A program made the position numbers and the translations under genes. Positions 30,442 through 45,767 of a DNA stretch of 64,000 bases are shown here, one piece after another. Origin of the DNA: Pseudaquabacterium pictum (GTDB lineage: Bacteria; Pseudomonadota; Gammaproteobacteria; Burkholderiales; Burkholderiaceae_C); the NCBI RefSeq assembly GCF_005403045.1, contig NZ_BJCL01000002.1, positions 248,001 through 312,000 on the forward strand, in the 5' to 3' direction. Below the pieces are notes generated by a model. That model saw only the letters and a list, made by a program, of their open reading frames with translations. It was not told where the DNA came from and ran no database searches. How positions within the stretch are numbered: position 1 is the stretch's first letter; every line of letters starts with the position of its first letter.

Positions 30442-30841
30442 GGGGTGCCTTGTCGGTCATCCGGGTGAGCGTGCCGCGCAGGTTGCGCGGTGCATGTGAG
30501 GCGACATCTTGCGGCCCCACGGGGGCGTCCGCAACGCGACTGGGCAGCGGCGGTCAACGTCGCGAGAGATCCTGTCGCACGCTGTCCATAACTCCCGACA
30601 ACAGTTCCCGCAACCACTGCGGAACGACCGGAATTGCCGGCCGGCTTCGCGTCACTTTGATCGATTGAGACCGGAGGTCGAGCCCTCCAATGACCGTGCT
30701 CTCGTTGACCCCACCACCCACCCACCGGCCGGACTCCAGCCGGTCAGCGCTGGCCACCCCGATCCATCCCCGAGAGACGGCCTTCCGGACGCACCGGATC
30801 GATGCGGCATGCACAAGCCGCCACCCCAAGAGGAAAACGCG
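30442..30841. other. 400-base non-coding region in front of the chemosensory locus
   Basis: This is the longest gap in the window. I found no convincing sigma-70, sigma-28 or sigma-54 boxes. Two possible secondary structures are visible: a GC-rich imperfect hairpin at 30511-30532 and a six-base inverted repeat, ACCGGC/GCCGGT, at 30724-30729 and 30739-30744. The ribosome-binding site AAGAGG lies just before 30842. The promoter of the big che operon presumably lies here but cannot be pinpointed. Confidence 0.6.
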
Positions 30842-32770
30842 ATGTCCCTGGTGATGAAGAACCGCAGCCCGGCTGCCGATGCCGCCCCTGCCCCCGTCAT
30901 GGCCAAGGGCCTGACCAAGACCATGGCCCGCGATGCCGAGGCCAACCGCAAGCGGGCCCGCACGCTGGCCAAGCAGCAGCAGGCCGCCGAGCGGGTAGCC
31001 AGCGCGTCCAGCCAGCTGTCGGCCGGCATCAACGAGGCTGCCTCGGCCAGCGAGGAACTCAAGCGCGCCGCCGACCAGATCGCCAGCGGCGCCGAGGAAG
31101 CCTCGGGCGCGGCGCAGGAATCGCTGGCCGCCATCACCCAGGTCAGCGGCGCCATCACCCGCCAGCTCGCCTCCGCCAACAATGCCCAGGGCAAGGCCGA
31201 GGGCATGCAGACCCTGGTCGGCCGCATCAACACCGAAGTGCAGGCCACAGTGGGCGCGCTGAACGTGGCGGCCAAGCGCCAGGGTGAATCGGTCAAGATG
31301 GTGGGCGAGCTGGAGCGCCAGGCCGCCAACATCGGCGACATCGTCAAGGCCGTCGCCCGCATCGCCGACCAGACCAACCTGCTGGCGCTGAACGCCGCGA
31401 TCGAGGCCGCCCGCGCCGGCCAGCATGGCAAGGGCTTCGCGGTGGTGGCCGACGAGGTGCGCACCCTGGCCGAGACCAGCGAGAAGAGCGCCAAGCAGAT
31501 CCAGGACCTGGTCGGCCAGATCCAGGGCGAGGTGAAGGTCATCGCCGGCGGCATCAACACCTCGGCCGAGGTGATCGAGGCCGAAGTGGAGAAGAGCGCG
31601 CTGATCGTGCAGCAGCTCGAGCAGATCCGGGCCGACGCCGCCGACATCGTGGCCGGCGCCACCGAGATCGCCTCGGCCGCCGCCCAGAGCAACGTGGCCT
31701 CGGCCCAGGCGCTGAAGGGCGCCGAGCAGATCGCCTCGGCCGCCGCCGAGCAGAGCAGCGCCTGCGAGGAAACCGCCAAGACGGTGGAAGAGCAGAGCGC
31801 CGCGCTGAGCGAGTGCGAGCAGACCGCCAGCAACCTGTCGGAGATCGCCGACGACCTGAAGAACAGCACCGACATCGCCAAGAGCGCCGAGGAGGTGGCC
31901 TCGGCCGCCGAGGAGCTGAGCAGCGCGGTGCAGGAGATCAACCGCTCGGCCGCGCAGATCCTGGTGGCGCTGGACCAGGTGCGCCAGGGCGCCCAGACCC
32001 AGGCCGCCGCCACCACCGAATCGGCTGCCGCCATCACCCAGATCGAGAAGGGCGCGCAGCTGGCCGAGGAGCGTGCCGGCCAGGCACGCGAGCGGGCCTC
32101 CGCCATCCGCAAGCTGCTGGGCGAGAACAAGACCCACATCAACGGCCTGGTGGCCAGCATCGCCAGCGGCGTGGACAGCACCCGCACCAGCATGCAGCAG
32201 ATCAAGGACCTGGAGCTGGTGAGCCGCAAGATCGACAAGATCGTCGACGCCATCACCCAGGTCAGCATCCAGACCAACATGCTGGCCGTCAACGGCAGCA
32301 TCGAGGCTGCGCGCGCCGGCGAGTACGGCAAGGGCTTCGTGGTCGTGGCCACCGACATCCGCAACCTGGCGCACGATTCGGCCGAGAACGCCGACCGCAT
32401 CAAGGACCTGGTCAAGAGCATCCAGGACCAGATCGGCACCGTGGGCCGCGACCTGGCCGAGATCATGGCCGCCAGCCTGACCGAGGTGGAGAAGACCAAG
32501 TCCATCACGGTGAACCTGGAGTCGATGGAAGCCGACGTGGTGTCGGTGGAGAAGGGCAATGCCGAGGCGGTGAGCGCCTCGCAGGAGATCGTCACCGCGC
32601 TGAGCCAGGTGAAGATCGCCGTGGACCAGGTGTCCTCGGCCGCGCAGGAAGCCGAGAAGGCCGCCGAACAGGCCGCCAGCGCTGCCAAGCAGCAGAGCCA
32701 GGGCGCCGAGGAGCTGAGCGCCGCGATCGAGGAGATCTCGTCGCTGGCCGACGAGCTGCAGAGCAACTGA
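30842..32770 (+). CDS. Soluble chemoreceptor with two complete signalling hairpins
   Basis: A 642-residue, almost entirely coiled-coil protein rich in Ala, Glu and Gln, with no membrane helix, PAS or HAMP domain. It contains two MCP signalling tips: [20 protein letters not shown] (QTN at 177-179) and [20 protein letters not shown] (QTN at 477-479), exactly 300 residues (900 bases) apart. SLAAITQ at 94-100 and SAAAITQ at 394-400 show that the duplication extends beyond the tips. Each unit should fold as an antiparallel hairpin that can engage CheA and CheW. The second tip is more diverged (NGS for NAA). The protein ends [10 protein letters not shown], without a CheR-docking pentapeptide. It is the first gene of the locus, 43 bases before the triple-CheW gene. 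Confidence 0.9.
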
Positions 32771-32813: not shown

Positions 32814-34433
32814 ATGGGTGCGCCTGACCAAGACGCCGCGGCCGAGACCGGCGCGGCGGTGACGGACCGCCAGTTCGTCACCTTCAACGTGGCCGGCGAG
32901 ATGTTCGCCGTGCCGATGGCACCGGTGCAGGAGATCATCCGCGTGCCGGACGTGGCCCGCCTGCCGCTGGCGCCAGCCGCGCTGGACGGGCTGTCCAACC
33001 TGCGCGGCCGGGTGCTGCCCATCGTCAACCTGCGCCGGCTGTTCAACACCGACGAGCGCGCCCATGACGACGCCACCCGCGCCCTGGTGATCAACCTGGG
33101 CCAGCCGCTGGGCTTCGTGGTGGACCGCGTGGCCAGCGTGGTCAGCGTGGAACCTGGCGAGATCGAGCCGGCCACCGCCATCCAGACCATCGTGCAGGCC
33201 GACTACCTGACCGGCGTGATCAACCGCGCCGGCGCCGACGGCCAGCGCCAGCTGATGCTGGTGCTGGACTTCGAGCGCCTGGTGGCCGACCAGTTCAGCC
33301 AGGTCAAGGGCGTGGGCGCGGTGTCGCAGCTGGCCGGCGAGGGTGGCAGCCACGACGAAGCCAGCCGCGTGGCCAGCGCCGATGAACTGCGCCTGGTGAG
33401 CTTCACCGTGCAGGGGCAGGAATACGCCATCGACATCGCCAATGTGCAGGAGATCGTGCAGGTGCCGGAGGCCGTCACCGCCGTGCCCAACACGCCGCAC
33501 CATGTGCTGGGCCTGATCTCGTTGCGCCAGCGCCTGCTGCCGCTGGTGAGCCTGCGCAGCCTGTTCGGCCTTGCCGCGGTGGACAGCGACGAGCAGCACC
33601 GCATCGTGGTGGTGGCCCTGCCCGGCGGCGCCCAGGTGGGCCTGGTGACCGACACCGTCAAGGAAGTGCTGAGCGTGCCGCGCAGCCAGGCCGATGCCAT
33701 GCCCGGCGTGCTCTCGCGTGACAGCCAGCTCGGCGAGTTCGAGTCGATCTGCCGCCTGGACGGCGGCAAGCGCCTGGTGTCGATCATCGCCGCCGACAAG
33801 CTGCTGGGCGTGCCGGCCATCCGCGAGGCCCTGAACGCCACCGACAGCGCCGCCACGCCTGGCGACGCTTCCACCGACCACGAGGAGACCGACATGTCGC
33901 GCGCTGCCAGCACCGCCACCGCCACCGACGACGACGCCCAGGTGGTGATCTTCCGCCTCGGCGCCGAGGAGTTCGGCGTGCCCATCATGAGCGTGCAGGA
34001 GATCGTGCGCGTGCCCGAGGTGCTGACCCGCGTGCCCAAGACGCCGCGCTTCGTCGAAGGCGTGATCAACCTGCGTGGCACGGTGCTGCCGGTGATCGAC
34101 CAGCGCACCCGCTTCGGCATGGCGTCCATCGCCCGCAACGACCGCCAGCGCATCATGGTCTACATGCTCAACGGGCTGCGCACCGGCTTCATCGTCGATT
34201 CGGTGGCCGAGGTGCTGCGCATCGGTCGCAGCCAGATCGAGCGGGCGCCCGAGCTGGGCGACGAGCAGGCCGGCCTGATCACCCAGGTGGCCAAGCTCGA
34301 CGGCGACAAGCGTCTGGTGATGCTGATCGAACCCAGCCAGCTGCTGGGTGCGCGCGAGTCCAAGGCCATGGCCGGCATCGACGGCCTGCAGCCCGACGAC
34401 GGCGCCGCAGCGCCCTGGGCCCAGGCGGCCTGA
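32814..34433 (+). CDS. Triple CheW-domain adaptor protein
   Basis: A 539-residue protein made of three CheW domains at roughly 18-165, 188-340 and 375-520. The diagnostic strand-turn reads NLRGRVLPIVNLRRLF in domain 1, SLRQRLLPLVSLRSLF in domain 2 and NLRGTVLPVIDQRTRF in domain 3; domain 2 has lost the usual Gly after Arg. CheW couples receptors to CheA. Three linked copies could crosslink receptors or form their own ring element. Translation starts at 32814 after a perfect AAGGAGGT. A second strong site inside the gene, before an ATG at 33894, could yield domain 3 alone. There is no separate cheW in this locus. Confidence 0.92.
   Translation: MGAPDQDAAAETGAAVTDRQFVTFNVAGEMFAVPMAPVQEIIRVPDVARLPLAPAALDGLSNLRGRVLPIVNLRRLFNTDERAHDDATRALVINLGQPLGFVVDRVASVVSVEPGEIEPATAIQTIVQADYLTGVINRAGADGQRQLMLVLDFERLVADQFSQVKGVGAVSQLAGEGGSHDEASRVASADELRLVSFTVQGQEYAIDIANVQEIVQVPEAVTAVPNTPHHVLGLISLRQRLLPLVSLRSLFGLAAVDSDEQHRIVVVALPGGAQVGLVTDTVKEVLSVPRSQADAMPGVLSRDSQLGEFESICRLDGGKRLVSIIAADKLLGVPAIREALNATDSAATPGDASTDHEETDMSRAASTATATDDDAQVVIFRLGAEEFGVPIMSVQEIVRVPEVLTRVPKTPRFVEGVINLRGTVLPVIDQRTRFGMASIARNDRQRIMVYMLNGLRTGFIVDSVAEVLRIGRSQIERAPELGDEQAGLITQVAKLDGDKRLVMLIEPSQLLGARESKAMAGIDGLQPDDGAAAPWAQAA
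33882..33896 (+). promoter_or_regulatory. Internal ribosome-binding site and start codon for a stand-alone CheW domain
   Basis: GAGGAG at 33882-33887, six bases, then ATG at 33894, in frame with the triple-CheW gene and located exactly in the linker before domain 3. Initiation here would give a 179-residue single-domain CheW. It looks like the remains of a former gene boundary whose stop codon was lost, or a device for making two adaptor forms from one mRNA. Confidence 0.6.
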
Positions 34434-34464: not shown

Positions 34465-35589
34465 GTGACCAAGGTGCTGGTGGTGGACGATTCGGCGCTG
34501 ATGCGCCGCCTGTTGTCCGGCTTGCTGACCGACGCCGGCTTCCAGGTGGCCTCGGCCCGCAACGGCGTGGAGGGCGTGCAGCAGCTCACCGAATGGCAGC
34601 CCGACGTGGTGACGCTGGACATCAACATGCCCGAGATGGACGGCCTGACCGCCCTCTCGCTGATGATGCAGGCAAGGCCCACGCCGGTGGTGATGGTGTC
34701 GTCGCTGACCGAGAAGGGGGCGCAGGCCACCTTCGAGGCGCTGGCCCTGGGCGCGGTGGACTTCATCGCCAAGCCCGGCGGCACCATCTCGCTGTCGGTG
34801 GAGGACATCGCCGACCAGCTGATCCAGAAGGTGAAGGCCGCGTCGCGGGCCCGCATGCGGCCGGCGTCCAGCGCCACCACCCGGGCGGCCGAGGCGCCGG
34901 CGCGCATGGCCCTGGGCCGCGGCGCGCCCAGGCCACCGGCTGCCGCGCCGGCGCCGGCGGCCGCACCGGCCAGCACGGCACCGCGCGCGAGCGCGGCCCT
35001 GGCCAAGCTGGATGGCCTGGTGATCATCGGCGTGTCCACCGGCGGGCCGCGCACGCTGGAAGACATCCTGCCCACGCTGCCGGCAGATTTTCCGTGGCCG
35101 GTGCTGGTGGCCCAGCACATGCCCAGCAACTTCACCGACACCTTCGCCAAGCGCATGGACAAGCTCAGCCGCATCGCGGTGCGCGAGTGCAACACCACGC
35201 TGCCGCTGGAGCCGGGCCATGCCTACATCGGCAAGGGCGGCACCGACATGGTGGTGGTGGAACGGCTGGGCCGCATCGCGGTGCAGCCACGGCCCGAGAC
35301 GCCCGGTCACCCCTGGCACCCCAGCGTGGACGTGCTCGTCGACAGCGCCATGAAGCTGCTGCCGCCCGAGCGCATCGTGGGCGTGCTGCTCACCGGCATG
35401 GGCAACGACGGTGCCCGCGCCATGGCCCAGCTCAAGGCCAGGGGCGGCCGCACCATCGCCGAATCGAAGGACACGGCGGTGGTCTTCGGCATGCCGCAGG
35501 AGCTGATCGAGCTCGGCGGCGCCAGCCTGGTGCTGCCCTGCACCGACGTGACACGCCAGCTGTGCCACTGGATCCACAAGAAGACCTGA
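34465..35589 (+). CDS. cheB: CheB, receptor methylesterase/glutamine deamidase
   Basis: A 374-residue CheB: an N-terminal receiver with VVDDSALMRR, phospho-Asp in VTLDINMPEMDG and Lys in IAKPGG, an Ala/Pro-rich linker at about 130-180, and the methylesterase domain. The catalytic triad is visible: Ser in GVSTGGPRTL, His in VAQHMP and Asp in GMGNDGARAM. Phosphorylated CheB removes receptor methyl groups for adaptation. The start is a GTG at 34465 behind GGAGA. Its presence with cheR means that at least some receptors in this pathway adapt by methylation. Confidence 0.95.
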   Translation: MTKVLVVDDSALMRRLLSGLLTDAGFQVASARNGVEGVQQLTEWQPDVVTLDINMPEMDGLTALSLMMQARPTPVVMVSSLTEKGAQATFEALALGAVDFIAKPGGTISLSVEDIADQLIQKVKAASRARMRPASSATTRAAEAPARMALGRGAPRPPAAAPAPAAAPASTAPRASAALAKLDGLVIIGVSTGGPRTLEDILPTLPADFPWPVLVAQHMPSNFTDTFAKRMDKLSRIAVRECNTTLPLEPGHAYIGKGGTDMVVVERLGRIAVQPRPETPGHPWHPSVDVLVDSAMKLLPPERIVGVLLTGMGNDGARAMAQLKARGGRTIAESKDTAVVFGMPQELIELGGASLVLPCTDVTRQLCHWIHKKT

Positions 35590-35604: not shown

Positions 35605-36231
35605 ATGGGACTGCGAAAGACCAACAGCCACGACGCTCTGCGCGAAGTGGTGGAACGCGAACACCCGCGCGACCTGGCCGGCCTGCTGGGTCAGCTGCGC
35701 AGCGGGGATGTGGAGCAGCGCCGCTGGGCCGCACGGGATCTGGCCGCCCACCCGCAGGCCGCCAGCGCGCTGGGCGAGCAGCTGCTGACGGAGACCGACG
35801 CGTCGGTGCGCGAGTCCATGCTCACCAGCCTGACCAGCCAGGCCAGCGAGGCCGCGGCCGGTGCCCTGCTGCCGCTGCTGCGCAGCGAGGACGCCCAGCT
35901 GCGCAACGGCGCCATCGAGGCCCTGGCCGGCATGCCGCAGGCCGCCGGGCCGCGCATCGCCGGCCTGCTGCGCGACGCCGATGTGGACGTGCGCATCTTC
36001 ACCGTCAACCTGCTGGGTGAACTGCGCCATCCGCAGGTGCTGCCCTGGCTGCTGCAGGTGCTGGCCCGGGACCCCGAGGTGAACGTGGTGGCCGCCGCGG
36101 TGGAGGTGCTGGCCGAGGTGGGCAGCCCTGAGCATGGCGACGCCCTGCGCGCAGCACGGGCCCGGTTCGCCGGGGATGACTTCATCGGCTTTGCGGTGGA
36201 CATGGCCGTCGAACGGATCGAGGCCGCATGA
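35605..36231 (+). CDS. HEAT-repeat protein embedded between cheB and cheR
   Basis: A 208-residue all-helical protein with about four to five HEAT-like repeats, for example VEQRRWAARDLAAHP, VRESMLTSLTSQA, AQLRNGAIEALAGMP and VDVRIFTVNLLGEL. No signal peptide or membrane segment is present. HEAT solenoids bind other proteins, so it is probably an accessory scaffold of this chemosensory complex. It is tightly packed between cheB (15 bases) and cheR (52 bases). HEAT proteins are occasional accessory genes of non-flagellar chemosensory loci; no function is established here. Confidence 0.85.
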   Translation: MGLRKTNSHDALREVVEREHPRDLAGLLGQLRSGDVEQRRWAARDLAAHPQAASALGEQLLTETDASVRESMLTSLTSQASEAAAGALLPLLRSEDAQLRNGAIEALAGMPQAAGPRIAGLLRDADVDVRIFTVNLLGELRHPQVLPWLLQVLARDPEVNVVAAAVEVLAEVGSPEHGDALRAARARFAGDDFIGFAVDMAVERIEAA

Positions 36232-36283: not shown

Positions 36284-37153
36284 ATGAAGGCCACCGCACT
36301 GAACCGGCGGCAGGAGATCACCGACGCGGACTTCCTGAAGTTCCGCGACTTCTTCTACCGCAAGACCGGCATCCACTTCGACGAGGGCAAGCGCTACTTC
36401 GTCGACAAGCGGCTGATCGAACGCATCGAGGCCACCGGCGCGGACGACTTCCGCAGCTACTTCATCGCCCTGCGCTTCGAGACCAAGGGCACGGAGCTGC
36501 AGCAGCTGGTCAACGCGATGACGGTCAACGAGACCTACTTCTTCCGCGAGGCCTACCAGTTCGACTGCATGGTCAAGGACATGCTGAACGAGATCGTCAA
36601 GCGCAAGCGCCCGGGCGGGCGCATCCGCATCTGGTCGATCCCGTCGTCCACCGGCGAGGAGCCCTACTCCATCGCCATCTACCTGCTCGAACGCTGGCCG
36701 CTGATCGACCAGTACGAGGTGGAGATCCTGTCGTCGGACATCGACACCACGGTGCTCGAGTCGGCGCAGCGCGGCGTGTACTCGGCGCGCTCGGTGGGGC
36801 AGCTGCCGCCCGAGTACCTGGCGCGCTACTTCAAGCAGCGCAATGCGAACGAGTTCGTGATCTCGCGGGATCTGGTGGCGGCGGTGGACTTCAGCCGCGT
36901 CAACCTGACCGATGCGAGCGACACCCGCGCCTTCCGCGACATCGACATCATCTTCTGCCGCAACCTGCTGATCTATTTCGACGACCTGTCGCGCCGGGTG
37001 GCCGCCGAGGCCATGTACGACGCGATGAGCCCGGGCGGCTTCATCTGCCTGGGCCATTCGGAATCGATGAGCCGCATCACACCGCTGTTCCAGCCGCGCC
37101 GCTTTGCCGACGCCATGGTGCACCAGAAACCGATCAAGGGAGATCGCGCATGA
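36284..37153 (+). CDS. cheR: CheR, receptor methyltransferase
   Basis: A 289-residue SAM-dependent glutamate methyltransferase. The helical N-terminal domain (FLKFRDFFYRKTGIHF) precedes the catalytic domain, with TVNETYFFRE, SIPSSTGEEPYSIAIYLLE for SAM binding and the C-terminal DIIFCRNLLIYFDD and GFICLGHSES. It methylates receptors and, with CheB, sets adaptation. The ATG at 36284 follows GGGGGAG. Its last four bases overlap the receiver gene downstream. Confidence 0.95.
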   Translation: MKATALNRRQEITDADFLKFRDFFYRKTGIHFDEGKRYFVDKRLIERIEATGADDFRSYFIALRFETKGTELQQLVNAMTVNETYFFREAYQFDCMVKDMLNEIVKRKRPGGRIRIWSIPSSTGEEPYSIAIYLLERWPLIDQYEVEILSSDIDTTVLESAQRGVYSARSVGQLPPEYLARYFKQRNANEFVISRDLVAAVDFSRVNLTDASDTRAFRDIDIIFCRNLLIYFDDLSRRVAAEAMYDAMSPGGFICLGHSESMSRITPLFQPRRFADAMVHQKPIKGDRA

Positions 37154-37581
37154 CCCACCATGTCCTGGTCATCGACGATGCCGCCACCGTGCGCATGTAC
37201 CACCGCAAGATGCTCAGCGACGCCGGCTGGCAGGTCGACGAGGCGGTCAACGGCCTGGAGGCGCTGGAGAAGGTGATGAGCCGCCCGCCGGGACAGGCCT
37301 TCGACCTGTACGTGGTCGACATCAACATGCCCAAGATGGACGGCTACACCTTCGTGCGCGAGCTGCGCCGCCTGGGCGGCACGCCGCCGGCCCCGGTGCT
37401 GATGGTGTCCACCGAATCGCAGATGCAGGATGCCACCGCGGCCCGCGATGCCGGCGCGAATGGCTACCTGGTCAAGCCGGCCAAGCCGGCCGAACTGATG
37501 CTGACCGCCGCGCTGATGCTGGGCGATGCCGCCGCGTCGCTGCGCGCGGCCGGCAAACTCGTTGCAGGAGCGTCCGCATGA
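37150..37581 (+). CDS. CheY-like single-domain response regulator
   Basis: A 143-residue receiver: VLVIDDAATVRMYHRKML, phospho-Asp in YVVDINMPKMDGY, Ser/Thr in LMVSTESQ and Lys in YLVKPAKP, plus a short Ala-rich tail. It overlaps cheR by four bases and cheA by four (ATGA at both ends), so the three are translationally coupled. It is the most likely immediate phosphotransfer target of the CheA next to it. Confidence 0.92.
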   Translation: MTHHVLVIDDAATVRMYHRKMLSDAGWQVDEAVNGLEALEKVMSRPPGQAFDLYVVDINMPKMDGYTFVRELRRLGGTPPAPVLMVSTESQMQDATAARDAGANGYLVKPAKPAELMLTAALMLGDAAASLRAAGKLVAGASA

Positions 37582-39923
37582 ACACCTCCGAACTGCTGGA
37601 CCAGTTCATCCAGGAGGCCCGCGAGGGTCTGGAAACCATCGGCCAGCGCCTGCTGGAGGTGGAGCGCAGCCCCGGTGATGCCGAGCTGCTGAACGACCTG
37701 TTCCGCCAGGTGCACACCCTCAAGGGCAACTGCGGGCTGTTCGACTTCAAGCCGCTGGAAACCGTGGTGCATGCCGGTGAAGACCTGCTGGACCGGGTGC
37801 GCAACGGCAGCCTGGCCTACAGCGGCGCCATCGCCGATGCCCTGCTGGAGGCGATGGACTACACCTCCGAGCTGATCGACACGATCGCGCAGGACGGCGC
37901 CCTGCCGGCCGGCGCCGCGCCGCGCGCCCAGACCCTGGCCGCCGCCCTGCGCCAGCACCTGGCCGGCCCGGCAGCGGCCGCCGTGGTCGCGGCGGCACCG
38001 GCACCGGCCGCCGTGGTGGCACCGCCGCTGCCGGACTGGGCTGCCGATCTGCCGCCGGCCCTGCAGCTGCCTGGCAGCACCGCGCTGCGCTACCAGCCCG
38101 AGGCGGAATGCTTCTTCAAGGGCGAAGACCCCTGGCACCTGGCGCGCAGCACCCCCGGGCTGCGCCACCTGGCGGTGCGCCCGGCCGCACCCTGGGCCAC
38201 GGCGGAGGCCTTCGACTGCTACCGCTGCAACCTGGACCTGCTGATCGTCAGCGACGCACCGCGCGCCGAGCTGGAGGCGCACTTCCGCTACGTGCCCGAG
38301 CAGCTGCAGTGGCACAGCCTGCGCATGCCGGCCGAGGCACCCGCGGTGGTGGGCGCCGAGCTGGCCTACCTGCGCGGCCGCATCGCGCTGGCCTGGGACG
38401 AGCAGCGTGCGCTGCTGGCCCGCCCCGGCATTGCCGCCGGCACCGTGGCCGCCACGCGGCGCGTGCTGGCCAACCTGCTGCAGTGCTGGGGCGACGAGGC
38501 GCTGTACCGGGCCCTGCACCCGACGCTGGAGAGCCTGCCGCCCGGCGCCCAGGCGCTGGCCACCTGGGCGCTGCAGCACCGGCCGTCCGACGCCACCGGC
38601 GCCGACATCGCGCAGCTGGCCGATGCCGCCAGCGCTGCAGGCCAGGCCGACGGCGACGGCGCCGGCGACACCACCGGCACGCCCGCCACGGTGACCGACT
38701 TCAAGCGCGGCGCCACGCCACCCGACGACGGCGGCGGCAATGCCGGCGGCCACAAGGTGCTCAAGGTCGGCCAGGACAAGATCGACCGGCTGATGGACCT
38801 GATCGGCGAGATGGTGGTGGCCAAGAACGCCCTGCCCTACCTGGCCCAGCGCGCCGAGGATGTGTTCAAGCAGCGCGAGCTGGCCCGAGAGATCAAGACG
38901 CAGTACAGCGTGATCAACCGCATCGCCGAGGACATGCAGCACGCCATCATGCAGGTGCGCATGCTGCCGGTGGGCACCATCTTCCAGCGCTTCGGCCGGC
39001 TGGTGCGCGACATCAGCAAGAAGCTGGGCAAGGACGTGCAGCTGGTCATCGAGGGCGAGGACACCGAGGCCGACAAGAACGTCATCGAGAGCCTGGCGGA
39101 CCCGCTGATCCACATCCTGCGCAACAGCCTGGACCACGGCATCGAGCTGCCCGCCGTGCGGCAGGCCGCCGGCAAGCCGGCCCAGGGCACGCTGCGGGTG
39201 TCGGCCCGCCAGGAGGCCGACCGCGTGCTGCTGGACATCAGCGACGACGGCGCCGGTGTCGACACCGAGCGGGTGCGCGCCAAGGCGGTGGAACGCGGCC
39301 TGATCGCCGCCGACCGCGCCGGCACGCTGACCGACCACGAGGCGGTGCAGCTGGTCTTCCTGCCGGGCTTCAGCACGGCCGAGTCCATCAGCGACCTGTC
39401 GGGCCGCGGCGTGGGCATGGACGTGGTGCGCTCGGCAGTGGAACGCATCAACGGCACGGTGGAGCTGTCCAGCGTGCGCGGCCAGGGCACCACCATCCGG
39501 CTGGCGCTGCCGCTGTCGATGGCGGTGACCAACGTGATGATGATCGAGACCGCCGGCCGCCGCTTCGGCGTGCCGATGGACCTGATCGTGGAAACCGTGC
39601 GGGTGCATGCCGACGACATCCACCACTTCAAGAGCGCCATGACCACGGTGCTGCGCGGGCGCATCGTGCCGCTGCGCCCGCTCAACGCCCTGCTGGCCCT
39701 GGACGAGGCCGCCCTGCGCAACGGCGATGGCGAGCATGCGGTGCTGGTGGTGCGCCTGGGCCACGAGACCCTGGGCCTGCTGGTGGACGACTTCCACGGC
39801 ACCAGCGACATCATCCTCAAGCCGCTGGAAGGCGTGCTGGCCGGCCTCACCGGCTTTGCGGGCACCGCCCTGATGGGCGACGGCAGCGTGCTGATGATCC
39901 TCAACCCGAAGGAGCTGGCATGA
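37578..39923 (+). CDS. cheA: CheA, chemotaxis histidine kinase
   Basis: A 781-residue CheA. The P1 domain has phospho-His46 in QVHTLKGNCGLF. An Ala/Pro-rich linker leads to a central region at about 170-330 (CFFKGEDPW and CNLDLLIVSDAPRAELEAHF, quoted in parts) that does not look like the enterobacterial P2 domain. P3 dimerisation helices start at GQDKIDRLMDLIGEMVV. The P4 kinase has HILRNSLDHGIE, DDGAGVD and GRGVGMDVV. The C-terminal P5 domain is CheW-like (VTNVMMIETAGRRFGVPM). It is coupled to the upstream receiver and the small downstream gene by start-stop overlaps. The unusual middle resembles CheAs of non-flagellar systems. Confidence 0.95.
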   Translation: MNTSELLDQFIQEAREGLETIGQRLLEVERSPGDAELLNDLFRQVHTLKGNCGLFDFKPLETVVHAGEDLLDRVRNGSLAYSGAIADALLEAMDYTSELIDTIAQDGALPAGAAPRAQTLAAALRQHLAGPAAAAVVAAAPAPAAVVAPPLPDWAADLPPALQLPGSTALRYQPEAECFFKGEDPWHLARSTPGLRHLAVRPAAPWATAEAFDCYRCNLDLLIVSDAPRAELEAHFRYVPEQLQWHSLRMPAEAPAVVGAELAYLRGRIALAWDEQRALLARPGIAAGTVAATRRVLANLLQCWGDEALYRALHPTLESLPPGAQALATWALQHRPSDATGADIAQLADAASAAGQADGDGAGDTTGTPATVTDFKRGATPPDDGGGNAGGHKVLKVGQDKIDRLMDLIGEMVVAKNALPYLAQRAEDVFKQRELAREIKTQYSVINRIAEDMQHAIMQVRMLPVGTIFQRFGRLVRDISKKLGKDVQLVIEGEDTEADKNVIESLADPLIHILRNSLDHGIELPAVRQAAGKPAQGTLRVSARQEADRVLLDISDDGAGVDTERVRAKAVERGLIAADRAGTLTDHEAVQLVFLPGFSTAESISDLSGRGVGMDVVRSAVERINGTVELSSVRGQGTTIRLALPLSMAVTNVMMIETAGRRFGVPMDLIVETVRVHADDIHHFKSAMTTVLRGRIVPLRPLNALLALDEAALRNGDGEHAVLVVRLGHETLGLLVDDFHGTSDIILKPLEGVLAGLTGFAGTALMGDGSVLMILNPKELA

Positions 39924-40177
39924 CCATCCGCTACCTGAAGAAGCACGCCGCCCTGGAAGGCCATGTGGGCGTGGACGATGCCGAGGCGCTGGGCCAGTGG
40001 CTGCGCAACCAGAACGCGCCCGCGGTGCACCTGGGCAAGTGCGAGCAGGTGCACAGCGCCGTGCTGCAGGTGCTGCTGGCGCTGAACCCGCGCATCAGCG
40101 CGCCGCCGGCCGATCCCTGGCTGGCGGCGGCGCTGCAGCAGTCGGGCGACCTGCACGCCAGCCAGGCGCCGGCCTGA
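39920..40177 (+). CDS. Small STAS-like protein after cheA
   Basis: An 85-residue protein beginning MTIRYLKKHAALEGHVGVDD. The segment VHLGKCEQVHSAVLQVLLALNPR has the spacing of the STAS domain core, where an anti-anti-sigma factor has D-x-S-A-x-L-x-x-L. A His replaces the residue before Ser-Ala. A Trp-containing helix follows. Its ATG overlaps the cheA stop. STAS-like proteins occur in some chemosensory loci as small partners, but this assignment rests on weak similarity. Confidence 0.6.
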   Translation: MTIRYLKKHAALEGHVGVDDAEALGQWLRNQNAPAVHLGKCEQVHSAVLQVLLALNPRISAPPADPWLAAALQQSGDLHASQAPA

Positions 40178-40198: not shown

Positions 40199-42382
40199 AT
40201 GCGCGCCTGGATCGACCGCCACCTGCACCGCCTGCCGTGGCTGGTGTTCGGCGGCGGCCTGGCGCTGGACGTGCTGACGCTGTGGCTGTTCCACCAGGGC
40301 AGCTCGGTGCTGGAGGCCACGGTGCGTGGTGCCTGGCCGGCGCTGTTCTTCCTGTGCGGCCTGCTGGCCAGCACCCTGCTGGCGCTGCTGCTGCACTGGC
40401 AGATCACCAGCCGGCGGCGGGCCGAGGCCGCCGCGCAAGGCATGTCGGCCGACCTGGAGCTGCTGGCCCTGGTGGCGCACAGCACCACCAACACCGTGCT
40501 GGTCACGGACCTGCAGGGCCGCATCACCTGGGTGAACAACGCCTGCGAGACCATCACCGGCTACAGCAGGGCCGAACTCATGGGCAAGACGCCCGGCGCC
40601 ATGCTGCAGTGCGAGGCCAGCGACCGCACCACCCGGCTGCGCATCCGCCAGGCATTGGCCACCGGCCAGCCCTTCCGCGGCGACATCCTCAACCGCAGCA
40701 AGAGCGGCCGGCTGTACTGGATCAACCTCGACATCCAGCTGCTGCGTGATGCCGGCGGCCGGCATGTGGGCTTCATCGGCATCAACAGCGACGTGACCGA
40801 GCGCCGCCAGACCGAGCAGGCACTGCGGGTGAGCCAGGCCTTCCTGCACAACACCGGCCGCATCGCCGGCGTTGGCGGCTGGGAGCTGGACCTGGACACC
40901 GGCCTGCTGCAGTGGACCGAGCAGGCCTGCCACATCCTGGAGGCGGCGCCCGGCCACCATCCCAGTGCCGCCGACTGCATCGCCCTGGTGGCGCCCGAGG
41001 CGCGCAGCCAGGTGCAGCAGCTGCTGGCCGAGGGGCTGGAGCGCGCCGGCACCGGCTGGGACGTGCAGCTGCCGGTCATCACCTTCGGCGGCAAGCGCAT
41101 CTGGGTGCAGCTGGTGGCCGAGGGCGAGTTCGGCGACCACGGCCTGGTGCGCATCGTCGGCGCGCTGCAGGACATCACCGTGCGCCGCCAGCTCGAGACC
41201 GAGATGCGCCGCAGCGAAGCCCTGCTGCGCGGCGCGATGGAAACCATCGACGAGGCCTTCGTGCTGTTCGACCCGGCCGACCGGCTGGTGTTCTGCAACG
41301 ACCGCTACCGCCAGGTGCACGGCGTGTCGGCGCACCTGCTGAAGCCGGGCACGCCGTTCGAGACCATCCTGCGCCACGGTGCGGAGCAGGGCCTGTACGG
41401 CAAGCTGGACATGCCGTTGGACGACTGGATGGCCGAGCGCCTGGCCAGGCACCGCCAGGGCAACCTCACCACCACCCTGCACCTGGGCGATGGCCGGGTG
41501 ATGCGCCTGCTCAACCGCCGCATGCCCGACGGGCACCTGGTGGGCTTCCGCTTCGACATCACCGACCTCACCCGCGCCACCGAGGCGGCCGAGCGGGCCA
41601 ACCGGGCCAAGGGCGAGTTCATCAACACCGTCAGCCACGAGCTGCGCACGCCGCTGCAGTCGGTGATCGGCTTCTCCGAGCTGGGCAAGGCCTTTGCGCA
41701 GGGTCAGGCGCCGTTCGACGCGATGTTCGACGACATCCATGCCGGCGGCCAGCGCATGCTGACGCTGGTGAACGCGCTGCTGGACGTGTCCAAGATCGAC
41801 GGCAGCCCGGGTGCGCTGTCGCTGCACCGCAGCGACCTGTTCGCCCTGGCCGCCGGCGTGGTGCGCGAGCTGGGCCCGCTGGGCGACAAGCGCGGCGTGC
41901 AGCTCCGCCTGCCCGATCCGCTGCCACCGCTGCCGGCGCGGGTGGACGGCTTCCGCATGCAGCAGGTGCTGCGCAATGTGCTGGCCAATGCGCTGCGCTT
42001 CGCGCCCGAGGGCAGCGACATCGAACTCACCGGCGACGACCTGGGCAGCGAAGGCGTGCTGCTGGAGGTGCGCGACCACGGCCCCGGCATTCCGCCGGAC
42101 GAGCTGGAGACCATCTTCGACGCCTTCGTGCAATCCAGCCGCACCCGTGACGGATCTGGCGGCACCGGCCTGGGCCTGACGATCTGCCGCAAGATCATGA
42201 CGGCCCACGGCGGCATCATCCTCGCCACCAACGCGCACGACGGCGGCGCCTGCATCCGCCTGTGGCTGCCCGCCGCGGCCGCGCTGGTCCAGCCTGCCCG
42301 CCCGGCGGCCGACCAGTCCCCGGCCGGTACACGCCCCGCCCCGCCATCCACCACCCCCCTGCCCGCCGAGGCCCTGCCATGA
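40199..42382 (+). CDS. Membrane-anchored three-PAS sensor histidine kinase
   Basis: A 727-residue kinase. Two membrane helices (about 13-33 and 46-68) are followed by PAS 1 ([19 protein letters not shown], in part) ending INSDVTERR, a second PAS-like module at about 225-330, and PAS 3 beginning [18 protein letters not shown]. HisKA has its phospho-His in [17 protein letters not shown], and the HATPase has [12 protein letters not shown] and [17 protein letters not shown] 1 has Cys in AMLQCEASD but not the LOV GxNCRFLQ motif. The stop overlaps the start of the receiver gene, its probable partner. Confidence 0.9.
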
Positions 42383-42788: not shown

Positions 42789-44000
42789 ATGCCGATTCCC
42801 GAACTCCCGACCGCGCCGCGTCCCCCGCTGGGCGCCCCCTTGCTGGCCGGCGTGGCCGCCCTCAGCCTGCTGGCCACGGCCGGGCTGGGCCCGGCGCTGG
42901 GGCTGGCGGGTGCCGCCGCCGCCGCCGCGCTGGCCGCGCTGACGCTGGCGCTGGCCGGCCTGCTGGCCTGGGGCTGGGGCCGCCTGGCCGGCGCCCGCCA
43001 CCGCGTGCTGCCGCGCGATGCCGCGGCGCAGGAGGTGCGCGACATGGGCCCCTATGTCACGCTGATGAAGCAGCAGCTGGGCGGCGCCCTGGACGAGTCC
43101 GAAGGCGGCACGCTGCAGGCCATCGAGCGCATGAACGCCATCCACCGCTTGTCGGCCGACCAGCTGGAACGCATCCGCACCACCGAGGGCAACAGCGACG
43201 CGCTGGCCCAGGTGGTGCGCGACAAGGTCATGGTCGACACCCAGCTGGGCTCGATCCTGACGATGTTCGTCGAGAAGCAGGAGGCCGACCTGCAGGCCAA
43301 CCTGGAACGCATCAAGCGGCTGCAGGGCGTGAAGGACCTCACGCCCATGGTCGACGTGATCGCCACCGTGGCACGGCAGACCAACTTCCTGTCGATCAAC
43401 GCCGCGGTGGAAGCCGCCCGCGCCGGCGAGTCCGGCCGCGGCTTCGCGGTGGTGGCCTCCGAGATCCGCCAGCTGTCCACCCGCACCGCGGCGGTGGCGG
43501 TGGAGATCGCCGCCAAGATCACCGCCGCCACCGACGGCATCGATGCCGAGCTGGCCGCCGCCACCAACCAGGGCGGTGTCAGCACCACCAGCAGCAACAT
43601 GCGCCAGGTGCTGACCGACATCGCCGAGATGCAGAAGCGCTTTGCCGAGAGCATCGAGCAGCTGCAGCTGGGCCGGGTGATCGCCGACATCAAGGCCGGC
43701 CACGAGGACATCGCCGAGCGGCTGAGCGACGCGCTGTCGCAGCTGCAGGGCCAGGATGTGATGCGCCAGCGGGTGGAATCGGTGCAGCAGGCGCTGGACG
43801 CGCTGCAGGAGCACCTGCAGGGCATGGCCACGCTGCTGCAGGGCGGCGAGGTGCTGCCGGCGCTCAAGCCGCTGCATCTGCAGCTGCAGGAACAGGCCGG
43901 CCGCTACGTGATGGACAGCCAGCGCATCACCCACGCCAGCGTCGCCGGTGGGGCGGCCGCGGCCGCGGCCAGCACCGCACCGCGTGTGGAGCTGTTCTGA
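42789..44000 (+). CDS. Membrane chemoreceptor-like protein with a CheZ-type phosphatase motif (copy 1)
   Basis: A 403-residue protein with a hydrophobic N-terminal hairpin at about 15-65 and no periplasmic sensor domain. A shortened MCP signalling hairpin has the tip [20 protein letters not shown] at about 194-213. A further helical region contains [15 protein letters not shown], with Asp323 and Gln327 in the D-x-x-x-Q spacing of CheZ. Then come [11 protein letters not shown] and the C-terminal PRVELF. The gene at 44529 has the same layout. I infer that it signals like a receptor and may dephosphorylate the receiver encoded just upstream. Low sequence identity to CheZ outside the motif means the activity is a hypothesis. 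Confidence 0.85.
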
Positions 44001-44048
44001 ACGCCAGCGCTCGACCGGACTGCCTGCACAGCGGCTGCAAAACCCTCC

Positions 44049-44075
44049 TCAAGTTCTCCGCAAGACCGCCGATAT
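44049..44075 (+). promoter_or_regulatory. Sigma-28 (FliA) promoter of the receiver/receptor pair
   Basis: TCAAGTTC at 44049-44056, 11 bases, GCCGATAT at 44068-44075, against the consensus TAAAGTTT-N11-GCCGATAA. It lies 71 bases before the start codon of the receiver gene at 44146 and in the only AT-containing stretch of this gap. It marks this gene pair as part of the flagellar late-gene regulon, separately from the large operon upstream. Confidence 0.8.
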
Positions 44076-44145
44076 TTTTATCAATTCGGGTCTGCAATGG
44101 CGCTGCGGCGGCGCCAGGATCCCAGCCCTCCACACAGGTGTCCTG

Positions 44146-44511
44146 ATGAAAAGCGTGTTCCTGGTCGACGACTCCGCCACGATGTTGATGAGCCTGAAGG
44201 GCACGCTGGAGATCAGCGGCTACAAGGTGGAGACCGCCAGCGACGGCGAGGCGGCGCTGACCAAGTTGAAGGCCGGCCTCAAGCCCGACCTGATCATCAC
44301 CGACATCAACATGCCCAAGCTCGACGGCATCGGACTGATCCGCGAGGCGCGCAAGCTGCTGCGCTTCACGCCGATCCTGGCGCTCACCACCGAGAGCCAG
44401 CAGGGCAAGCGCGACGATGCCAAGAAGAACGGGGCGACGGGCTGGCTGGTCAAGCCGGTGGGCGGTGCGGAGCTGGTGAAGGTGATCAAGCAGGTCCTGC
44501 CGGGCGCCTGA
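44146..44511 (+). CDS. CheY-like chemotaxis response regulator
   Basis: A 121-residue receiver that starts [17 protein letters not shown]. The phospho-Asp is in [13 protein letters not shown], Thr is in LALTTESQ, and Lys is in WLVKPVGG. The NMPKLDG and TTES segments are typical of CheY-type receivers. It is the first gene after a sigma-28 promoter and is followed 17 bases later by the second receptor-phosphatase-like gene. It may be the main CheY for the flagellar motor, although no fli genes are in the window. Confidence 0.92.
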
Positions 44512-44528
44512 TACCGGGAGGACACACC

Positions 44529-45767
44529 ATGGCACGACCCGCTTCCTGGCCACGCCCCTCGCTGCGTGATCTGGGCTTGCTTGCCTTGTTCGGCGGCGCA
44601 ATGCTGGCCCACAGCCTGTGGGCGGACGAGGTTCCCTGGTCGGCGGTCTTCGGCGTGGGCGTCGGGGTGGTGCTGGGCAACTGGCTGCAGCGCTTCCACC
44701 GGCCGATGCTGGGCCGCAACCACCGCGACACCGCCGTGGTGGTGCAGGACATCCACACCCTGCGCCAGGCGTTCAACGTGCTGACCAAGCAGGTGGACGC
44801 CACGATCCAGGCGTCGGAGTCGGCCGTGATGTCGATGATCGACCGGGTGCACCGGGTGCACAACCATGCCCAGTCGCTGCAGACCAAGATCCATGCCGCG
44901 GTCGGCCGCTCGCAGGCGCTGAGCACCGATTCACTCAGCCGCGCCGGCCAGCACGGCCAGGCCGTGGCGTCGCTGGCCGAGCACCAGCAGGCGCTGGAAA
45001 CGGTGCAGGCCGAGAACCAGCAGCGCGTGGGCGCGGTGGCCGAGCGGGTGCGCCAGCTGACGCCGCTGGCCACGCTGATCACCGACATCTCGCGCCAGAC
45101 CAATCTGCTGGCGATCAACGCCTCGATCGAGGCGGCCCGCGCCGGCCCCGAAGGCGCCGGCTTCAAGGTGGTGGCGGCCGAGGTGCGGCGGCTGTCGCAG
45201 CAGACGGCCGAGGCCGCCCGGCAGATCAGCGAGGGCATCCACCAGGCTGCCGGCACCATCGATGCCGAGATGGCCCGCGCCGAGTCGCAACACGGCACCA
45301 GCGCAGCCCGCCAGCTTGGCGAGATCGCCCAGCACATCCAGCTGATGAGCGACACCCTGAGCGACGTGGTGCCCTACCTGGGCGAGCTCTCGCAGCACAT
45401 GGACCAGGGCATGGCCACCATCGACCACGATGTCATGGACATCCTGGCCGAGATGCAGTTCCAGGACATCAACCGCCAGCTGCTGGAGCAGATCAATGCG
45501 GCGCTGGCCTCGCTGTCGGAGCACTTCGCGCAGATCTACAGCCTGATCGACGGCCAGGCACCGCCGCCGCCGATCCTGCTGGAAGAACTGCTGGCGCGCT
45601 GGACCGACAACTACGTGATGCACTCGCAGCGGGTGGCGCATGCCCAGGGCACCGGCCGCGGCGACGTGCCTGCGCCCACGCCGGCGCCCGAACGGGCCAG
45701 CACCAGCCCCCCGCCGGCCGAGCTGTCGCTGGCCGGCAACCAGGGCGCCCGCATCGAGTTCTTCTGA
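44529..45767 (+). CDS. Membrane chemoreceptor-like protein with a CheZ-type phosphatase motif (copy 2)
   Basis: A 412-residue paralogue of the gene at 42789. Two hydrophobic helices lie at about 12-30 and 36-52, followed by a coiled-coil hairpin with tip [20 protein letters not shown] at about 187-206. The helical segment [15 protein letters not shown] has Asp313 and Gln317 in the CheZ D-x-x-x-Q spacing, and the QFQD sequence is very close to the QDFQD of the true CheZ in this window. It shares [11 protein letters not shown] and a hydrophobic-acidic C terminus (GARIEFF) with its paralogue. Translation starts behind GGGAGG. Its partner is most likely the CheY-like protein encoded immediately upstream. 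Confidence 0.87.

Follow-up and report, generated by a model that had tools for sequence, protein, structure and literature searches.

The gene at 30842-32770, on the forward strand of the window (the whole stretch of 64,000 nucleotides that was analysed), encodes a chemoreceptor with two signalling tips in one chain. It is very probably DosM, which serves F9 chemosensory systems as scaffold receptor: a two-tip rod that would bridge two CheA/CheW3 baseplates and set the distance between them, without itself sensing. The identification is based on architecture and gene context, rather than on a direct alignment to the Vibrio cholerae protein. F9 systems are characterized by DosM, which has double signalling domains, and by CheW3 (PMC7534058, PMC9321776; these and the other papers are cited from excerpts). 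Double-tip receptors are thus an already described class tied to F9 systems, not the novelty that an earlier note on this DNA had implied, and the gene described here extends the class. Three details go beyond the literature consulted: the tip spacing, a register break at the centre of the chain and covariation between hairpins 1 and 2; the last two are hints of a joint in the middle and of a pairing between the two unlike tips.

The receptor gene and its internal repeat

The receptor gene has the following features.

30830-30835, forward strand: GAGGAA, a ribosome-binding-site-like sequence just 5' of dosM, read from the sequence
30842-32770, forward strand: dosM, soluble receptor of 642 amino acids with two signalling hairpins (two MCPsignal stretches; 137 distinct homologues)
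30977-31876, forward strand: unit 1, hairpin with the canonical tip, residues 46-345 (offset-300 repeat)
31334-31477, forward strand: core of tip 1, residues 165-212 (sequence and family alignment)
31853-31879, forward strand: central joint, residues 338-346, with the LKNSTD motif (heptad break, predicted helix break at 342-344, adjoining inter-tip indels at 345-348)
31877-32767, forward strand: unit 2, hairpin with the variant tip, residues 346-642 (offset-300 repeat)
32234-32377, forward strand: core of tip 2, residues 465-512 (sequence and family alignment)

The open reading frame starts with the ATG at 30842, and its stop codon ends at 32770. Two MCPsignal stretches are matched in the 642-residue product (Pfam, whole-protein E 6.1e-61), and the QTN triplets lie at residues 177 and 477 (DNA positions 31370 and 32270), 300 residues apart, just where the earlier note had placed them. 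That note had also proposed an internal duplication, with a self-alignment as a check. The repeat is real: identity is 32.7% at offset 300, against a mean of 9.5% (sd 2.2) at the other offsets between 100 and 449. With the tip core left out, the halves agree at 64 of 230 positions, where 5000 shuffles gave a mean of 24.2 and a maximum of 41. The two halves are a true internal repeat, homologous at offset 300.

MCPsignal is the sole family matched by Pfam at E 0.001, and at this limit no sensory domain is found, in keeping with the earlier reading by eye. A simple hydropathy scan found no membrane segment in the protein; the scan is coarse and missed the segments seen by eye in a neighbouring receptor. 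By Pfam and this coarse hydropathy, DosM differs from an ordinary transmembrane MCP, which has one tip and membrane segments. A scan for methylation motifs returned four matches, around residues 85, 92, 357 and 617. The organism's own genome carries 36 MCPsignal matches, and only at dosM do two fall in one frame. When own-genome receptors were scored against the DosM profile by arm length, all except DosM were negative at every shift listed (the best two per arm), so that no partner receptor emerged. An MCPsignal match on contig C14 at 66961-67167 contains an in-frame TGA and is possibly a decayed receptor gene.

The gene cluster

Downstream of dosM the following genes are found.

32814-34433, forward strand: cheW3, three concatenated CheW domains, the F9 signature (Pfam; three CheW matches in one frame)
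34465-35589, forward strand: cheB, start not fixed (Pfam match)
35605-36231, forward strand: HEAT-repeat protein of the F9 cluster (Pfam)
36284-37153, forward strand: cheR, start placed by where the CheR domains lie (domain match)
37150-37581, forward strand: cheY-like response regulator (domain match)
37578-39923, forward strand: cheA, with Hpt, H-kinase_dim, HATPase and CheW (domain matches; inner ATG start)
39920-40177, forward strand: small STAS-like open reading frame, overlapping the cheA stop (ATGA)
40199-42382, forward strand: PAS histidine kinase adjoining the cluster, a putative member only (domain match)
42789-44000, forward strand: single-tip MCP with two N-terminal membrane segments (domain match, hydropathy)
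43948-44511, forward strand: receiver-domain open reading frame between the two MCP genes (Pfam)
44529-45767, forward strand: second single-tip MCP, start inferred, membrane segments by eye only (domain match)

The receptor gene heads a complete F9 set of cheW3, cheB, the HEAT-repeat gene, cheR, cheY and cheA. For cheA the inner ATG is preferred because the Hpt domain starts at residue 163 of the long frame. A CheW3 match starts less than 1.5 kb downstream of dosM in all 80 loci of the first scan, a count of matches and not of three-domain genes. Where 9 kb or more of sequence was available downstream (61 loci), matches to CheB and CheA were found in 61 each and to HEAT, CheR and CheY in 60 each; the figure for CheY is a loose one, since it may include other receiver domains. 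The same gene order appears in plasmid records of Azospirillum lipoferum, A. brasilense, Methylosinus trichosporium and Sphaerotilus sulfidivorans.

Several neighbours merit notice in their own right. The HEAT-repeat protein is a regular part of the cluster, with a match in 60 of the 61 roomy loci. The STAS-like open reading frame encodes 85 residues, and relatives follow CheA in 60 of the 60 first-scan loci where the CheA C-terminus was found; there is one match in the organism's own genome. Its Pfam matches to STAS_2 all fall below the curated cut-off. The predicted fold (pLDDT 86) lies nearest to SpoIIAA-type STAS proteins, with a best Foldseek E of 1.8e-3; no Foldseek match was found at E 0.001. 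In Sinorhizobium the STAS protein CheS binds CheA (PMC12654446), and by analogy the small protein may be the F9 counterpart of CheS. A small STAS-like protein seems regularly to accompany the F9 kinase CheA. In Azospirillum (loci L134 and L137) a gene annotated as CheC and a response regulator lie 5' of dosM; the A. lipoferum gene matches both the CheC and the CheX families (Pfam), and some F9 clusters may have a phosphatase of their own. The two downstream single-tip MCPs have unusual tips and similar C-terminal ends, ARVELF and ARIEFF, and matches to them also follow many of the loci listed. Their topology recalls that of VC1394, a membrane receptor of the V. cholerae F9 cluster (PMC7534058). 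The own genome also has six CheA-type H-kinase_dim matches, which makes it probable that several other chemosensory systems exist there beside F9.

Distribution, rod length and a proposed central joint

The search for homologues proposed in the earlier note returned 137 distinct proteins with the same two-tip layout. With the window's own protein they form an alignment of 138; nine loci with identical proteins and the genome's own copies were dropped. The first scan used exact peptide matches and so leans to close relatives, a lean that the genome searches do not have. Carriers of dosM number 9 of 398 genomes in a phylum sample, 9 of 369 in a class sample, 10 of 330 in an order sample and 16 of 299 in a family sample; around the carrier genome G028 they number 3 of 289 in its class and 15 of 149 in its family. 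Overall, about 1-10% of the genomes in the samples searched are carriers, with the proviso that the samples overlap and that each is centred on, and counts, a known carrier. The E limit was 1e-60, except for the class sample of 369 genomes (1e-40). Among plasmid records, 22 of 72,556 carry the gene (E 1e-60). The phylum rate is close to the published one, F9 clusters being reported in 72 of 2781 species, 64 of them full and 8 partial (PMC9321776).

The distance between the tips is 300 residues in 135 of the 138 sequences, down to 35% core identity; it is 299 in two (L163, L178) and 298 in one (L162). The deletions of one or two residues that alter the spacing in these three relatives all fall at 345-348, beside the inter-tip midpoint at 344, and have glycines adjoining them. 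They are the only inter-tip indels of the aligned family. Past residue 45, the other indels are a one-residue deletion at 608 and a one-residue insertion after 636; in addition, 39 rows have extra C-terminal residues, and row L174 is truncated over residues 46-77 at a contig edge. Ordinary receptors of one length class are likewise expected to be free of indels, so the fixed length alone is unsurprising.

What lies at the midpoint? The central motif is well kept (among 115 rows, S342 in 111, D344 in 110 and K347 in 111), and the heptad register changes there. With family-averaged hydrophobicity and a period of 3.5, the Fourier phase runs from 5 to 56 degrees in unit 1, its tip included, and from 104 to 158 degrees in unit 2. 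The jump at the centre is 101-109 degrees, about one residue (103 degrees); among the controls, none of eight junctions exceeds 42 degrees and neither tip exceeds 18. A free search for a break, over positions 230-459 and shifts of -3 to 3, placed it best at residue 344, where a one-residue shift gives an amplitude of 82, compared with 48 for an unbroken register; positions 338-346 score nearly as well. The AlphaFold2 model (mean pLDDT 88.6, pTM 0.61) predicts helices at 26-341 and 345-641. In its secondary-structure string the break at 342-344 is the sole one between 26 and 641, with none at the tips; a hairpin turn at the tips is predicted from a Foldseek match to a hairpin, not from this string. 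That match is to the Thermotoga maritima hairpin 2ch7, over 299 columns with a TMt of 0.71, the half of the model that is matched being unstated. The hits for the full model also included unrelated helical proteins, and nothing on the relative placement of the two halves came from Foldseek on the full model. The register break at 344 and the helix break of the model together argue, at the level of sequence, against a continuous heptad coil. It is proposed that the centre of the rod is a joint.

Covariation between hairpins and the possible pairing of chains

Which tips face each other at an end of the rod? Four geometries were named before the family alignment was scanned for covariation: i+j=388 and i+j=988, within hairpins 1 and 2 (positive controls), and i+j=688 and j-i=300, which compare the two hairpins with each other at equal height. 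The first scan was a plain one, and the scores were matched for entropy only afterwards. Among 820 antiparallel lines, the scan of 137 sequences peaks at 987 (z 3.13), 688 (2.99) and 387 (2.11), and the best line elsewhere reaches 2.04. The 81 first-scan sequences (window included) give z 4.68 at 688, with 2.94 at 388, 3.06 at 988 and at best 2.78 elsewhere. In the 57 sequences from the genome and plasmid searches (window included), the corresponding values are 3.12, 2.26, 3.47 and 2.27. Among the 99 rows at least 60% identical to the window's protein, 688 has z 4.46, and another line, at 3.57, stands above both positive controls. The 38 rows below 60% give 3.01, against 2.12 elsewhere; in the 27 rows below 50%, 688 (2.36) is under the best other line (2.85). 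Six random halves gave z 2.59-3.10 at 688 and 1.93-2.63 for the best line elsewhere. The observed score of 7.68 was never reached in 100 simulations with independent sites on the family tree (maximum 3.58), a comparison that overstates significance, as the background sd is 2.62 in the real data and 1.06 in the simulated, and the effective number 53 and 77, respectively.

The signal is unevenly distributed. Between the N1 and C2 arms the peak falls at exactly 688 (score 7.0); the signal is highest, at 5.78, over the stretch 10-40 residues away from the tips, and weak, at 0.95, near the centre. The C1-N2 arms are weaker, with 3.16 at 688 and a peak at 693. Control geometries running in the wrong direction have maxima of 1.5 to 5.2. 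In mean-field DCA, which is not entropy-matched, lines 685-688 rank first. Three points speak against contact: when the 688 line was tested block by block, most blocks stayed within the range of the controls; surface-surface pairs contribute to the N1-C2 signal at least as strongly as core-core pairs do; and tips that share partners could coevolve without touching. Shared-partner coevolution should, however, favour equivalent positions, i.e. the line at difference 300, which has z 0.73 in the close set against 4.68 for 688; in the full set it is the best parallel line, at 3.07.

If each rod end consisted of two copies of the same hairpin, positions of hairpins 1 and 2 far from the centre would never meet. 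A rod made only of parallel homodimers, with tip 1 on tip 1, does not fit the covariation. Two other arrangements would bring the hairpins together. The likelier of the two, though less likely than not, is that DosM dimers are antiparallel: each end would combine tip 1 of one chain with tip 2 of the other in a mixed four-helix bundle, with the chains meeting at the central joint. Alternatively, a single chain might fold back at the joint, hairpins 1 and 2 forming a four-helix pseudo-dimer with both tips at the same end. The helix break in the model, the one-residue register break, the short central deletions with their glycines and the covariation at equal height would all accord with a fold-back, and the covariation leaves room for the fold-back with two docking sites that the earlier note had listed. 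The published V. cholerae work speaks against it, and C1-N2 covariation is absent beside the centre (-0.69), although a tight turn would be expected to produce its maximum there; a fold-back is considered unlikely. For mixed bundles of tips 1 and 2 the covariation is a fair lead, not a demonstration, and it would make antiparallel rods likelier than a fold-back.

Were the antiparallel arrangement true, both baseplates would be given the same mixed pair of tips, which would explain both the presence of two lastingly different tips in one gene and the formation of two equivalent layers by one scaffold. In the literature searched, one paper, PMC10390336, has the terms DosM, chemoreceptor and antiparallel together; the idea may already be in print. 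The 138 aligned sequences supply a fixed rod length, a conserved middle joint and, in the covariation, a prediction of the tips that lie opposite one another, so that the assignment of tips to baseplates and the question of parallel or antiparallel chains become testable.

Divergence of the two tips

The earlier note regarded the second tip as diverged, with NGS in place of NAA. The difference is real; it is not special to this genome. Tip 1 has alanine at 185 and tip 2 glycine at 485 (the G of NGS) in 138 of 138 sequences, which rules out a genome-specific divergence; the full NGS triplet is common, not universal, among the aligned proteins. A tree of hairpin cores was built from 21 chosen family members and 142 columns, one fragment of the window's gene being among the tip-2 rows. 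All 21 tip-2 rows lie on one side of a branch with 100% SH-aLRT support, from which it follows that the tips parted once, before the sampled members did. The branch that unites both tips against other receptors has a support of only 84, and the tips may have originated either by duplication of one hairpin or by fusion of two. Distinct, long-separated roles are proposed for tips 1 and 2.

Does the second tip dock at all? It departs from canonical sites that tip 1 keeps (VNG for LNA, T-D-I for D-E-V), as might be expected if it were dead or a decoy, with tip 1 alone docking CheA/CheW and unit 2 serving as a spacer. The constraint on tip 2 is strong, however: all 104 rows have E488, R491 and F499, and 102 of them have R507 (the window's gene counted twice). 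By comparison with E. coli Tsr, these are presumably docking or trimer-contact positions. The 300-residue spacing is kept as well, and a decoy tip is judged very unlikely. The exact spacing and clear internal repeat might also suggest that an ordinary receptor gene was duplicated recently or by artefact, but with units only 33% identical, a split of the tips that predates the divergence of the sampled members, and the layout shared by 137 distinct homologues from many other records, which rules out the assembly duplication that the earlier note had named as its refutation, this is scarcely credible.

Geometry and comparison with known systems

Observed here are the repeat with its fixed spacing, the F9 genes around dosM and the conservation. 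By analogy with the V. cholerae work, each chain would consist of two tandem hairpins of about 300 residues joined base to base, and both ends of the resulting long rod would carry a tip that docks the kinase and CheW. In an array lying entirely in the cytoplasm, the rod would connect the two facing CheA/CheW3 baseplates and fix the distance between them, and the same geometry is assumed for the present organism. DosM itself would sense nothing, input would come from other array receptors or proteins, and CheR and CheB would adapt it.

With a helix rise of about 0.15 nm per residue, 300 residues correspond to a tip-to-tip distance of about 44 nm. Tar hairpins are about 19-20 nm long each. Between baseplates, the F9 arrays of V. 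cholerae have a gap of 35 nm, and those formed by E. coli Tar fragments one of 31 nm (PMC3964821, PMC7184735). By this estimate the 44 nm tip distance would be compatible with the 35 nm gap, because the Tar lengths place the baseplates several nm inside the tip-to-tip length.

In the literature consulted on F9 and on tandem-tip receptors under other names, no system closer than DosM/F9 was found. V. cholerae DosM (VC1403) is likewise a soluble chain with two signalling domains and without a sensory domain (PMC7534058, PMC9321776), and it is encoded in an F9 cluster with a triple-CheW adaptor and cheA, cheB, cheR and cheY. It is described as an extended rod, tipped at both ends, that reaches across two CheA/CheW layers (PMC7534058), in agreement with the double-ended rod that was among the options of the earlier note. 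Of DosM homologues, 98% lack sensory domains (PMC9321776), in line with that note's view that input comes through a partner. F9 receptors are assigned to the 44H length class (PMC9321776); in the present receptor, a candidate member, the unit has 300 residues, and the model aligns to 2ch7 over 299 columns. The host lineage differs from that of V. cholerae, the closest named first-scan relatives including Sphaerotilus, Leptothrix and Rubrivivax.

Other likenesses are found in single-tip receptors. The T. maritima hairpin 2ch7 matches DosM residues 342-640 by sequence, but comes from a receptor with one tip. The two-layer arrays of Rhodobacter sphaeroides are built from single-tip soluble receptors. 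In these cytoplasmic arrays, too, receptors lie between two opposed baseplates; the layers are 27-30 nm apart and curved, whereas those of V. cholerae are 35 nm apart and flat (PMC3964821).
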